The position numbers were made by a program, and so were the translations under genes. A DNA stretch of 33,463 bases from Pseudobdellovibrionaceae bacterium (GTDB taxonomy: Bacteria; Bdellovibrionota; Bdellovibrionia; Bdellovibrionales; Bdellovibrionaceae): NCBI GenBank assembly GCA_947449255.1, contig CANFQX010000025.1, positions 1 to 33,463 of the forward strand. Direction: 5' to 3'. Positions 19,170 through 23,662 of the stretch are shown here, one piece after another (within the stretch, counting starts at the first letter, position 1; every line of letters starts with the position of its first letter). The notes under the pieces are model-generated. The model saw nothing but the letters and a program-made list of their open reading frames with translations, made no database searches and was not told the origin of the DNA.

Positions 19170-19826
19170 ATGCCATTAACAAGAGAACAAATTGCGCAAA
19201 GAATTGCTCAAGAAGTTGAAAGCGGTTTTTGCGTGAACTTAGGAATCGGCATCCCAACTCTGGTTGCCAATTATATTCCCATTGAAAAAAATATTATGTT
19301 ACAGAGCGAGAATGGCCTTTTAGGAATGGGTCCTTTTCCCAGAGAATCTGAAGTGGATGCTGATCTGATCAATGCGGGCAAGCAAACTATCACGGCCGCG
19401 CCAGGAGCCAGTTTTTTTTCCAGTGCTGAAAGTTTTGCGATGATTCGCGGTGGGCACGTGGACCTCACCGTCCTGGGCGCCATGGAAGTGGACGAACAGG
19501 GCTCCATCGCAAACTGGATGGTTCCAGGCAAGATGGTCAAAGGTATGGGTGGCGCTATGGACCTGGTCGCTGGAGCTCGCAACGTGATCGTTGCGATGCA
19601 ACACACTGACAAAGATGGTAAATCAAAACTGCGAACTCGCTGCACGCTTCCTCTGACGGGAATAAAATGCATCAAGAAAATAGTCAGCGACTTCGGTGTG
19701 ATTGAAATTACATCTGAAGGATTTTTACTTGTTGAGCATGCACCAGATTTGACCCCAGAAAAAGTAAAGGCTGCAACGGAAGGAAAAATGACAATTTCTC
19801 CAAACTGCCGACCGATGAAATTTTAA
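19170..19826 (+). CDS. scoB: 3-oxoacid CoA-transferase subunit B
   Basis: Beta subunit, 218 residues, carrying the catalytic glutamate (Glu47 in QSENGLLGMGP) that forms the glutamyl-CoA thioester. Other family blocks are VNLGIGIPTLVANY, DLINAGKQT, GGHVDLTVLGAMEVD and NWMVPGKMVKGMGGAMDLV. It works as a heterotetramer with subunit A just upstream. It is the last gene of the rightward operon and a strong terminator begins about 45 bases after its stop. Confidence 0.95.
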   Translation: MPLTREQIAQRIAQEVESGFCVNLGIGIPTLVANYIPIEKNIMLQSENGLLGMGPFPRESEVDADLINAGKQTITAAPGASFFSSAESFAMIRGGHVDLTVLGAMEVDEQGSIANWMVPGKMVKGMGGAMDLVAGARNVIVAMQHTDKDGKSKLRTRCTLPLTGIKCIKKIVSDFGVIEITSEGFLLVEHAPDLTPEKVKAATEGKMTISPNCRPMKF

Positions 19827-19868
19827 GCTCGAAAATTAAAAGCTGATTCTCTCATGGTCGCAAATATG

Positions 19869-19903
19869 AAAAAAGACCCTCCTTTAATAGAGGGTCTTTT
19901 TTT
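19869..19903. terminator. Two-way intrinsic terminator
   Basis: GACCCTC (19875-19881) pairs with GAGGGTC (19890-19896) around an 8-base loop. An A-run lies before and a T7 run after. It serves the thiolase/CoA-transferase operon and the convergent gene at 19944-20963. Confidence 0.88.
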
Positions 19904-19943
19904 GAGATGAACGCGCAAAAGAAATTGCCTGTGATGTTTTTTC

Positions 19944-20963
19944 CTAGCCACCAAAAGGATACAAATAAACTGACATCTGGTAGGGCTCGTTCAAATTACC
20001 AGCCAGCTCATTCTCAAAACGACAGATTGCACTTATAACTCTATGCCCCTGACTTTTATGCTGATCAATCACTCTTGATTTATCACGGTTGCACTCATTG
20101 TAGTCTGAATAAGTATAAGGGTCATAAGAATCATAAATCATCAAAAAATGATTCCAAACAGATTGAAGGATCGCAATTCCTTTGCCTTCGACAAAAAAAT
20201 GATTGCATCCAAAAACTGCATCTTTTTTTCCAAAGACATCCAAAATCTTTTTCATTTCAGGAATCTGATCTGTGCACGCGGCTTCATTCATAGTGCCAAA
20301 CCGATGACTTTGGGGTTCCACCGCAATCTCGGCAAAATAAAGAATAAACTCAGAGGACCGGGCCACGATGTGTCCGTTATTCATCTCGATGATTTTTTCA
20401 ACAGAAGTTTTGAAAAAGGGTTCTTTAAACTGAAAAGCCATATCTCTGGTTGAAAAGAGGCTAATTTTTGGTTTTCCAACAGTGTCAATTCGGGTCACAT
20501 AGGTTGGAAATATTATTGAAGTCGCCTTTTCACAGGTTGACGCCAGGATAGGATATTTTGAGTGTTCTTGAAACTCTTTGGTTCTTGCTGACAATTCCTT
20601 CAAGCAATCACCCATAGTCGCGTATAGACCTTCTCTGTTGCTCATTTCATTCTCAAAACTAGAAACGCCGTAATAAAAGGTTTGAATCTGCTCGCGATCG
20701 CTGACGGTAGGGTCTGGATAGATCATATCCAAAACATAGAGCGGATATTCTTTTTTCTCGTTGATAATTTTTGATGTTCCAGAGCAATTCACCTTGATGG
20801 CCGATTTTTTTGCCAATTGCGCATACCGTTGACCGATGAGAACAGCCTCTTCTTCGCAAGATAAAGAACTTACGGGAATTTTTATTCGATAGAAAGCATC
20901 TGCGGCTGTCGCAACTTTAACATTAATGGAAAAAATAAAATTCAATAGGATCAAAAAAAGCAT
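19944..20963 (-). CDS. Cysteine-containing exported protein of unknown function
   Basis: 339 residues. The N-terminal hydrophobic stretch ends about residue 20 (ATA|ADAF), a signal peptide. The mature part has eight cysteines (for example LSCEEE, VNCSG, GDCLKE, FGCNHF, YNECNR, AICRFE), suggesting disulfides in the periplasm. No catalytic motif or family is recognised. Aromatic-rich segments (YDSYDPYTYSDYNE) occur late in the protein. GAGG lies 5 bases before the ATG. It shares the terminator at 19869-19903 with the convergent CoA-transferase operon and is divergent from the squalene synthase gene. Not annotated further for lack of evidence. Confidence 0.65.
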   Translation of the reverse strand: MLFLILLNFIFSINVKVATAADAFYRIKIPVSSLSCEEEAVLIGQRYAQLAKKSAIKVNCSGTSKIINEKKEYPLYVLDMIYPDPTVSDREQIQTFYYGVSSFENEMSNREGLYATMGDCLKELSARTKEFQEHSKYPILASTCEKATSIIFPTYVTRIDTVGKPKISLFSTRDMAFQFKEPFFKTSVEKIIEMNNGHIVARSSEFILYFAEIAVEPQSHRFGTMNEAACTDQIPEMKKILDVFGKKDAVFGCNHFFVEGKGIAILQSVWNHFLMIYDSYDPYTYSDYNECNRDKSRVIDQHKSQGHRVISAICRFENELAGNLNEPYQMSVYLYPFGG

Positions 20964-21057
20964 AAGAGCCTCACTCAGAACGTCACAGTGTTTGCCAAAA
21001 CATACCCGAACAAAAGGACACTCAACTTGGGTACAAGCTAATTAATGCCCCCCATAA

Positions 21058-21082
21058 TTGACCAACCTGCCACTGTGGTCAA
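21058..21082. promoter_or_regulatory. Dyad in divergent promoter region (possible operator)
   Basis: Perfect 7-bp inverted repeat TTGACCA / TGGTCAA with an 11-base centre, located between the divergent genes at 20963 and 21235. Its size suits a dimeric regulator, but there is no independent evidence. No matching repeat is seen at other promoters in the window. Confidence 0.25.
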
Positions 21083-21178
21083 GGGAGATACTGAATCCTA
21101 ATTTGTGACGCACCTTAATTAATAAGAAAGAAAGATATTTATAGAGTTGGCAAGAGCTGAATTCTCTAAATATATTCT

Positions 21179-21208
21179 TTGTTTGGACGCCTGAAATGTA
21201 TTTATATT
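21179..21208 (+). promoter_or_regulatory. Candidate promoter of the squalene/phytoene synthase gene
   Basis: TTGTTT (21179-21184) and TATATT (21203-21208) are 18 bp apart, predicting a transcript start near 21215. That is only about 20 bases before the ATT proposed as the start codon and leaves room for the AGGT at 21227-21230 as ribosome site. Moderate consensus match. Confidence 0.45.
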
Positions 21209-21234
21209 AACTCTCATTTGCTTTGTAGGTCTCT

Positions 21235-22305
21235 ATTAAAAAAAATAAGATAGAAAACAAAAAAAACCACCTCGACATTGAACAGCTCAAGAGCTCCTCC
21301 GATGAAGATTTTCAAATTCTACTGCTTTCGGCGGTCTCAAGAACTTTTGCACTAACAATCCCTGAACTGCCTGAAAAAATCAACCTGGCCGTGGCAAACG
21401 CCTATCTTTTATGCCGAGTCATTGACACGATCGAGGATGAAGTTTCGCTCTCACCTGAACAAAAAAAATATTTTTGCACTGGCTTTATTGAAGTCGTAAA
21501 AAACAACCAGAAGGCCGATGATTTTTCATTGGAACTTACCCCCTTGCTGTCCGAGCAAACGATTCGTGCTGAGCATGTTTTAATTCATTTTTTACCTCGA
21601 GTTGTTCAAATCACACACAAACTGGACTTGAAGCAGATGGAGGCAATTTTTACCTGTGTCGAAACGATGACCGAAGGCATGGCCAGTTTTCAATCTCAGG
21701 AACTGAAGCATGGCCTTCCAACCCTTGTGGATTTGAATAAATATTGCTATTGCGTCGCTGGCTGTGTGGGCGAAATGCTCACACAAATATTTTGCCATTA
21801 TTCAACCCAGATTGACCTTCACAGCCAAGAGCTGATGTCACTTTCTGCTTCCTTTGGACAAGGCCTGCAGATGACCAATATTCTGAAAGACATCTGGGAG
21901 GACGCAGGTCGTGGAGTTTGCTGGTTGCCTCAAGATATTTTCACTCAGACAGGATTTAACCTTCAGCTATTGAATCAAAAGACCAGTGATGAAACTTTTA
22001 AAAAAGGCTTGGAGCAATTAATCCAAATAACTCAAGGGCATTTAGATAATGCTCTCAAGTACACACAATTGATTCCAGCTCAAGAAAAGGGGATAAGAAA
22101 TTTTTGTCTCTGGGCGATAGGCATGGCTCTCTTGACTTTAAAAAAAATTAAAAAAAATATAGATTTTAAAAATTCACAAACAGTTAAAATAAGTCGCAAA
22201 AGTGTAGCTGCGATAATGTATGGAACCCAAATCATCAGAGGCAATAACACGCTATTGAGCTTAGCTTTTCAAGTCCTTAGTAAAGATTTGAAAGTGCCCT
22301 ACTAG
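21235..22305 (+). CDS. Squalene/phytoene synthase family protein with non-standard start
   Basis: Head-to-head prenyl transferase joining two farnesyl (or geranylgeranyl) diphosphates, leading to squalene/hopanoids or carotenoids. The two aspartate-rich motifs are visible: DTIED in LCRVIDTIEDE, and DIWED in MTNILKDIWEDAGRG. Homology clearly begins upstream of the first standard start codon (GTG 21391): in-frame codons 21301-21390 encode DEDFQ, SAVSRTFALTIPELPEKINLA, the conserved N-terminus with the substrate-binding SRTFAL. Between the in-frame stop at 21226 and 21391 there is no ATG, GTG or TTG. An ATT at 21235 with AGGT 4 bases upstream is the best candidate, giving 356 residues. A frameshift in the A8 run at 21238-21245, or a sequencing error, are alternatives. 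No other isoprenoid gene is nearby. Confidence 0.85.
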   Translation: MKKNKIENKKNHLDIEQLKSSSDEDFQILLLSAVSRTFALTIPELPEKINLAVANAYLLCRVIDTIEDEVSLSPEQKKYFCTGFIEVVKNNQKADDFSLELTPLLSEQTIRAEHVLIHFLPRVVQITHKLDLKQMEAIFTCVETMTEGMASFQSQELKHGLPTLVDLNKYCYCVAGCVGEMLTQIFCHYSTQIDLHSQELMSLSASFGQGLQMTNILKDIWEDAGRGVCWLPQDIFTQTGFNLQLLNQKTSDETFKKGLEQLIQITQGHLDNALKYTQLIPAQEKGIRNFCLWAIGMALLTLKKIKKNIDFKNSQTVKISRKSVAAIMYGTQIIRGNNTLLSLAFQVLSKDLKVPY

Positions 22306-22619
22306 AATTAATATCGCCCCAACCACAAAGAACAGAGGGTTCGATTTTTTCATTAGGCCTCACAAAGAAATTCTAATATAATATTTCAGCTATTTCTTTT
22401 AATTTAAAAATTTTTCCCCAAGGCAGATCAATTTTTCAGCAAAAATTAAAGCTCTATTTTGAGACAGACAGTAAATATTTTTCATTCCCATCCAGAGATT
22501 GGACTTTTTTTTGTTAATCAGTTCCTCAGATTCAATTTACAAAAACCAACTCCAACGCTCACTCAATTCATAAAATTCGTATTTATCTTAGACCTTGATC
22601 TAGACGACCCCTACCTTCG
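22306..22619. other. Non-coding stretch between synthase and regulator genes
   Basis: About 310 AT-rich bases with no convincing gene. A weak 4-bp hairpin followed by a T8 run (about 22492-22514) could end the synthase transcript. Near 22591-22606 two TAGAC copies lie close together (TTAGACCTTGATCTAGAC), forming a small partial palindrome that might be a regulatory site for the cyclic-nucleotide regulator. Neither is well supported. Confidence 0.3.
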
Positions 22620-22648
22620 TTGCACCTGTGAGTAATTCCAGCAATAAT
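22620..22648 (+). promoter_or_regulatory. Candidate promoter of the cyclic-nucleotide-binding regulator
   Basis: TTGCAC (22620-22625) and AATAAT (22643-22648) are 17 bp apart. The predicted start near 22655 gives a leader of about 24 bases containing AGAGGGG. It supports GTG 22679 over the in-frame GTG at 22628. The -35 box is weak. Confidence 0.35.
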
Positions 22649-22678
22649 CTCTTATCAACCGTTAGAGGGGAAAACTCT

Positions 22679-23662
22679 GTGGCCGAAGAAAAAAAAATTG
22701 CAAAAAATGTTTATCTTTTTAGAGAGGGCGATGCCCCCGACGCTATGTACATCGTTAAGTCCGGTGAATTTGTCGTAACTAAGACCAAAGGAAACAGCGA
22801 AGTCGTTTTAGCAGATATCCAAGCTGGCTCTATGGTTGGTGAAATGGCCTTGTTTGACAGCAAACCAAGAAGTGCTAACGTTAAAGCCCTCAAGGATTCT
22901 GAAGTGATGATTCTCCCCTACGAATCCCTAAATAAGCAGCTTGAGCAATTACCTGTTTGGGTAAAATCTATCATAAAAAAACTCAACGAAAATATTCGTG
23001 AAGCCAATAAAAAAATAAAGATTCTTGAGACTGTTCAAAATGAAGAAGATCGCTTTCCTCCACATATCGTGAACAAATACATTTCAATCCTTAATTTAGT
23101 TTGCAATAAATATGGCAAACCAGAAGCCAATGGAGCTATCGGGGTCTCCTCCGTTATACTTCGCAATTACACGATTCAAATATTTCAAGAGGCCACGAAT
23201 AAAATGCAATCGGTTGTGACCGCACTCACTGAATTGGGTTACCTCATACAAGAAGACCGTGGTGATGGCTCACAAAAAATAATAAATACTAAACCTAGTG
23301 AACTTTTTGAATTTGTTGATTGGTACAATGAGTGGCTCTTCGAACTAGAAAAAAAGCGCCTACAATCTCTGACCGACACTGAAGTTAAAATTCTCAATGG
23401 TTTACTTCATTTTGCAAAGAAAACTGAGCCCAACAGCAAAGGCCTTCATAAAGTTAACCTGACAGATGTTCAGAATGACTCCATGAGAGATCTTGGCTTT
23501 CTCTTAAAGATAGACGACGTGAATCCCCTCGCCACTAAAGAGTACATTAGCGAGAGAATCCTGGACGATAAAGGCACTTACCTTATGGTTGAGATTGCAA
23601 AGGTCGAGCCCATGGCTAGAAACTGGACTCTTATAAACAACCTTAAGAAGAAACTGAGATAA
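22679..23662 (+). CDS. Cyclic-nucleotide-binding regulator with unusual C-terminal region
   Basis: About 327 residues. The N-terminal cNMP-binding domain (about 5-110) has the jelly-roll pattern YLFREGDAPDAMYIVKSGEF and a near-perfect phosphate-binding cassette GEMALFDSKPRSANVKAL (split, about 62-80) with the Arg and Glu needed to hold cAMP or cGMP. A long helix (about 95-125) follows, as in CRP. The C-terminus is not the usual Crp HTH: a winged-helix-like unit (about 130-200; TALTELGYLIQEDRGDGSQKI as helix plus wing) is followed by about 120 unassigned residues. GTG 22679 is preferred: AGAGGGG lies 8 bases upstream. An in-frame GTG at 22628 lacks a ribosome site. The gene converges with pyk, 9 bp apart. 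Confidence 0.8.
   Translation: MAEEKKIAKNVYLFREGDAPDAMYIVKSGEFVVTKTKGNSEVVLADIQAGSMVGEMALFDSKPRSANVKALKDSEVMILPYESLNKQLEQLPVWVKSIIKKLNENIREANKKIKILETVQNEEDRFPPHIVNKYISILNLVCNKYGKPEANGAIGVSSVILRNYTIQIFQEATNKMQSVVTALTELGYLIQEDRGDGSQKIINTKPSELFEFVDWYNEWLFELEKKRLQSLTDTEVKILNGLLHFAKKTEPNSKGLHKVNLTDVQNDSMRDLGFLLKIDDVNPLATKEYISERILDDKGTYLMVEIAKVEPMARNWTLINNLKKKLR

Follow-up and report, generated by a model that had tools for sequence, protein, structure and literature searches.

The window, that is, the whole stretch of 33,463 nucleotides analysed here (contig CANFQX010000025.1 of the Pseudobdellovibrionaceae assembly GCA_947449255.1), contains a squalene/phytoene synthase gene whose conserved N-terminus is encoded upstream of every standard start codon in its open frame (Table 1). 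The frame is open from 21229 to 22302, with TAG 21226 as its upstream closure, and reading it agreed with the initial annotation in that ATG, GTG and TTG are all absent between this TAG and GTG 21391, which lies downstream of the SRTFAL block. The AGGT, the ATT and the run of eight A were likewise found where they had been placed. The conserved block had been said to begin at 21301; this holds approximately when the preceding acidic residues are counted with it, but SRTFAL proper, presumably the active-site helix, begins at 21337. The start-free run of 54 codons arose in 2.0% of 20,000 shuffles of the gene's own codons, so its length is not striking by itself; the run is significant because an ATG stands close to the place of the window's AAG in 59 of 63 distinct orthologous loci of methanotrophs.

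Table 1. Features of the synthase locus and its surroundings, in window coordinates
Feature	Position	Strand	Basis or remark
Left neighbour, 3-oxoacid CoA-transferase subunit B, conserved	19170..19826	+	NCBIfam, genus comparison
Insertion segment, 2801 bases	19827..22627		Splits two genes that are close in 23/23 genus relatives; synthase and one other ORF inside
Companion ORF	19944..20963	-	Match at 1e-10 in 1/24 genus genomes (own)
Promoter-like pair TTGGCA-18-TATATT	21147..21176	+	10 of 12; about chance level
In-frame TAG	21226..21228	+	37 codons before SRTFAL
AGGT, weak Shine-Dalgarno-like	21227..21230	+	Within Methylobacter-like leader
ATT, near-cognate start candidate	21235..21237	+	4 nt after AGGT
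A8 run	21238..21245	+	Sequence
AAG where methanotrophs have ATG	21247..21249	+	Motif distance in 59/63 loci; leader similarity
Squalene synthase coding region	21247..22305	+	Counted from codon aligned with methanotroph ATG; Pfam SQS_PSY, identity, model
ATA, near-cognate start candidate	21250..21252	+	One codon after the presumed ancestral start
SRTFAL block	21337..21354	+	Sequence, alignment
GTG, first standard in-frame start	21391..21393	+	Downstream of SRTFAL
Right neighbour, cyclic-nucleotide-binding protein, conserved	22628..23662	+	Pfam, genus comparison

The claim of a family member lacking a standard start before its conserved N-terminus stands on this frame reading and on Pfam, in which SQS_PSY (PF00494) matches open-frame residues 34-323 with 186.7 bits against a cut-off of 26. 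In the alignment, the two aspartate-rich motifs DTIED and NILKDIWED as well as SRTF are all kept in the window protein; these are taken here to be the catalytic motifs of the PF00494 family. The squalene synthase equivalog TIGR01559 is the best of six NCBIfam models, with a score of 133.2 bits that is under its cut-off of 286.75. With a structure model built from 15 aligned sequences (pLDDT 88), Foldseek returned squalene synthases at all of ranks 1-41 (TM by query 0.64-0.76), the best solved-structure matches being the human and Trypanosoma squalene synthases. Squalene synthases were also at the top of a sequence search of solved structures, among the best 10 of 18 sequences.

The closest relatives of the gene are found outside the phylum of its host. 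A scan of species genomes using six peptide patterns gave 26 loci, to which the window synthase is 59-66% identical; 24 of them carry names of methanotrophic gammaproteobacteria, and two (L044, L051) of uncultured proteobacteria that group with Methylomonas. Among 201 genomes sampled from the Methylococcales, the order to which Methylobacter tundripaludum SV96 belongs, 177 match with E <= 1e-60 and a top identity of 66%. A search of 24 genomes of the host genus at E 1e-20 found the synthase in the host's own genome only, while 31 of 140 genomes of the host order match at 1e-15 (own included), the best other one with 37% identity, and a search of the phylum (368 genomes) gave 32% identity for the best non-self match (E 8e-36). 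An earlier tree took distant family members from the phylum as outgroup and omitted nine remoter Methylococcales rows; in it, the window sequence stands beside, not within, the 26 rows of methanotrophs, a placement of weak support (87/54). This tree had very long branches, and the placement is unsure. A midpoint-rooted tree was then built within the Methylococcales (39 rows picked by the author from 70 sequences), and here the window sequence falls inside a methanotroph group of 30 rows (support 99/96), the nine other Methylococcales rows lying outside. It sits on a long branch, of length 0.79 where the median is 0.088. By these comparisons, the window gene is by descent a lone copy of the Methylococcales squalene synthase, and it was probably acquired by horizontal transfer, the donor presumably being Methylobacter-like. 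Among the listed papers on Bdellovibrio and squalene, and on Bdellovibrio, methanotrophs and horizontal gene transfer, none mentions such a gene in its title or abstract opening.

The insertion site agrees with acquisition. In 21 of 23 genus relatives, 53-195 bases separate the CoA-transferase and cyclic-nucleotide-binding genes, measured between the ends of the alignments, against 2801 bases in the window; of the remaining two relatives, L080 has a gap of 972 bases and L089 one of 515, the latter because its match is split. The gap in L080 suggests that this junction may be a recurrent insertion site. Contamination or a chimeric contig is rejected, since both flanks of the insertion neighbour each other in all 23 genus relatives, and the segment is for this reason read as a horizontal transfer. 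GC content is uninformative on origin (0.40 for the synthase, 0.445 for the methanotroph locus L031 and 0.39-0.48 for nine other window genes). No family of Pfam or NCBIfam matched the companion ORF at E 0.001 (one Pfam match, E 0.083, is under its cut-off), and the 26 methanotroph loci gave nothing better than E 0.39 for it. It has a 45% identical paralog in the same genome, on the 6 kb contig C34 (L092:3332-4345), the match to which contains one in-frame TAA; both proteins are possibly exported. The pair has no known family and was absent at E 1e-10 from the other 23 genus genomes.

An ATG is present 28-31 codons ahead of the SRTFAL-type motif in the 59 methanotroph loci, exactly 30 codons ahead in 54 of them (the 63 distinct loci are 69 minus six duplicates; counting the duplicates, 65 of 69 have the ATG). 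The other four loci (L127, L129, L130, L132) have ATG, GTG or TTG elsewhere before the motif. Their constant position suggests that translation begins at these ATGs; additional standard codons occur upstream of them in some loci. In the window, the codon 30 before the motif is AAG 21247. As a check, the initial annotation had proposed looking in close relatives for a conserved ATT; what the methanotroph loci have is this ATG. The other possibility it named, a one-base indel restoring the upstream frame, was rejected: the sole start reachable in this way is TTG 21218, which has no Shine-Dalgarno sequence and lies before the position of the relatives' ATG.

The bases preceding the AAG also resemble those of methanotrophs. 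When the 28 bases preceding the ATG are compared without gaps, the window shares 15-19 of them with 11 of the first 26 loci, and the register of the AAG is better than all 80 slid registers in 10 of these 26, not in the other 16 (slid means 7.3-8.8). Over the 59 loci, placing AAG on the ATG gives a mean identity of 11.2 of 28, as against 9.1 for ATA and 6.8 for ATT; six of 66,870 window registers on both strands reach 11.15 (duplicates counted, the mean is 11.6 and the number four of 66,870), and one A-rich place, 21268, outscores 21247 with 11.9 (duplicates counted). The leader just upstream in the window resembles that of one Methylobacter group. The codon of TAG 21226 is TAG in L033, L034 and L035 and TAA in L037, L041, L046 and L056, seven of the 63 distinct loci; in the three with TAG, a TAGG precedes an ordinary ATG with equal spacing, and L033 shares the position of the ATT as well. 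In a MAFFT alignment with the frame given from the ATT, the residue it encodes was placed, with a gap, against the methanotroph Met, in a variable N-terminus; this speaks against the AAG as the ancestral start position. Farther upstream, about 40-110 bases before the start, loci L031-L056 contain by eye a strongly conserved block, e.g. CAACAAACAGTCTATTATTG, with an A-rich stretch preceding it. The block has the look of a conserved promoter or operator, and the window shows no evident counterpart. From the constancy of the ATG, the resemblance of the leader and the shared TAG or TAA, it is concluded that the leader probably came with the gene and that the ATG was lost later. The loss of the ancestral ATG thus probably took place in the window lineage, or else arose in this assembly; ATT 21235 with AGGT 21227 probably represents inherited methanotroph leader and not a purpose-built start.

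The signals near the candidate codons are weak. AGGT does stand 4 nt before ATT 21235, as had been indicated, and the ATT is still a live candidate; however, the pairing is weak, and the leader appears inherited. Predicted Shine-Dalgarno pairing is -3.9 kcal/mol for the ATT (AGGT) and -4.1 kcal/mol for ATA 21250 (overlapping GGTC), a second near-cognate candidate absent from the initial annotation, and the spacing fits for the ATT only; AAG 21247 has the same AGGT, but far upstream. As a yardstick, 19 other window genes, chosen by the author from 27, have a mean of -6.5 kcal/mol, while the median over random places is -2.6, their best quarter lies at or below -4.7, and more than a quarter of them match -3.9. 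One 16S tail with a canonical anti-Shine-Dalgarno is present in the genome. The promoter pair proposed at 21179-21208 was not returned by a promoter scan of 20960-21400, which gave the pair at 21147-21176 and one opposite-strand site, with 0.9 expected by chance.

The protein itself shows constraint. Identity to L031 over 322 codons is 0.76, 0.86 and 0.43 at the first, second and third codon positions, and 162 of the 191 residues invariant among 14 methanotroph proteins, chosen from the 26, are kept in the window. Stops, frameshifts and lost catalytic motifs, which would mark a pseudogene, were looked for in the 352 synthase codons and none was found, though 155 single substitutions would make a stop. 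These codon-position identities, the kept residues and the intact frame argue that protein-level selection acted for much of the branch. This constraint does not date the loss of the start, and the long branch could mean relaxed constraint.

The relatives' ATG is lost in the window while near-cognate codons stand nearby, and here it is tentatively proposed, at a little less than an even chance, that the transferred synthase is still made by weak near-cognate initiation. A squalene synthase would have been acquired from Methylococcales, apparently with part of its leader, and long kept as a working enzyme; the ancestral ATG would then have been lost in the window lineage, with AAG 21247 in its place. 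Translation would begin with low efficiency at a near-cognate codon of the A-rich leader, either ATT 21235, four codons upstream, or ATA 21250, and from either of them would give a full-length enzyme including the SRTFAL helix. The weak pairing, the rarity of switches from AUG to AUU, the long branch, a leader resemblance confined to some loci and the placement in the outgroup tree speak against this proposal.

A recent silencing, in which the gene lost its start codon before anything else and is now hardly or not translated, is possible but the less probable of the two. It is favoured by the replaced ATG with no strong new start nearby, by the long branch, and by the host, in which squalene would have no evident use: a squalene/oxidosqualene cyclase domain (PF13243) was not found in the genome by a search that was positive in two of 14 control genomes. 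Against it, the 352 codons contain no other lesion despite those 155 possible stop substitutions and eight runs of at least six equal bases, and SRTF, DTIED and NILKDIWED are kept; by the author's estimate, lesions falling at random would strike the start first in about 4% of cases (7 substitutions that destroy the start against 155 that create a stop, indels excluded). The acquired enzyme would presumably convert farnesyl diphosphate to squalene. A separate carotenoid cluster is present on contig C3 of the same genome (L093, G000:C3:238000-254000). Its lycopene cyclase and CrtI-family desaturase score over their cut-offs, its phytoene-synthase-like and prenyl-diphosphate-synthase-like genes under theirs.

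Weak initiation may also have been selected as such, the ATG being exchanged for a near-cognate start as deliberate low expression in the new host, dependent on the stringency of initiation factor 3; this is unlikely. A base error of the draft assembly at or near 21247, the true start being a normal ATG, is likewise unlikely. The single assembly in 34 contigs, the A-rich homopolymer stretch at the site and the ATG of the relatives all speak for such an error. The difference, however, looks like an in-register substitution rather than an indel, assemblies seldom contain substitution errors, and the adjacent codons differ from those of the relatives too, so the site has diverged anyway. A shortened protein of 304 aa from GTG 21391, the first standard start in the frame, is improbable, since it would lose SRTFAL, which is identical in all 14 aligned methanotrophs and within the Pfam domain (from residue 34), and the pairing upstream of this GTG is only -1.3 kcal/mol. 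Least credible of all is the slip from TTG 21218 suggested in the initial annotation, a short frame that would pass into that of the synthase by a -1 shift on A AAA AAA: the A8 run is a slippery heptamer in the right frame, but the TTG has no Shine-Dalgarno (pairing +0.2 kcal/mol) and would begin within a stretch that is pre-ATG leader in the methanotrophs.

If the gene is translated, it would be a well-bracketed natural case of an AUG lost after horizontal transfer with selection retained, and, if deliberate down-tuning were true, a rare natural one of start-codon down-tuning following gene transfer. If it is silent, it would exemplify a gene in which the loss of the start precedes all other damage. 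In both cases, it would represent a between-phyla transfer of squalene synthase into a recipient genome whose search revealed no squalene cyclase domain. A start finder restricted to ATG, GTG and TTG picks GTG 21391 and so cuts off the SRTFAL helix.

With the squalene synthase of Methylococcales (single-enzyme route), the window gene shares the motifs, the distance from motif to start position and, for some loci, a related leader, whereas those genes start with ATG and the window gene has AAG there. In Methylomonas, the squalene synthase gene is described as clustered with squalene-hopene cyclase (PMC10745290), the enzyme whose domain the PF13243 search did not find in the window genome.

Genes with non-standard starts include pcnB, with AUU, and Streptomyces sigR, with GTC. 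Together with infC, cvfC1 and ccpN, they resemble the window gene in having no AUG, GUG or UUG at the likely start and a near-cognate codon available. In Staphylococcus aureus, the AUU start of cvfC1 and the AUA start of ccpN are reported to have extended Shine-Dalgarno motifs, and the non-standard codon and strong Shine-Dalgarno of cvfC1 to be conserved among staphylococci (PMC13009471), whereas the relatives of the window gene have ATG and its own Shine-Dalgarno is weak. Switches from AUG to AUU are described as very rare, with one among 61,358 reconstructed AUG starts (PMC5622118). The AUU start of infC serves autoregulation (PMC5472188), while no regulatory logic is apparent in the window gene as compared with that account. 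The parallel to infC drawn in the initial annotation, an ATT kept for autoregulation, is unsupported because the relatives have ATG and the ATT and AGGT sit in a methanotroph-like leader; in place of a non-standard start kept in relatives there is ATG in 59 of the 63 distinct loci, and in place of a strong Shine-Dalgarno a pairing of -3.9 kcal/mol against the window-gene mean of -6.5. Pseudogenes by start loss, as generally known, share with the window gene the missing ATG of the relatives, but the window gene differs from them in its frame free of stops and frameshifts, its kept motifs and the visible constraint on its protein.
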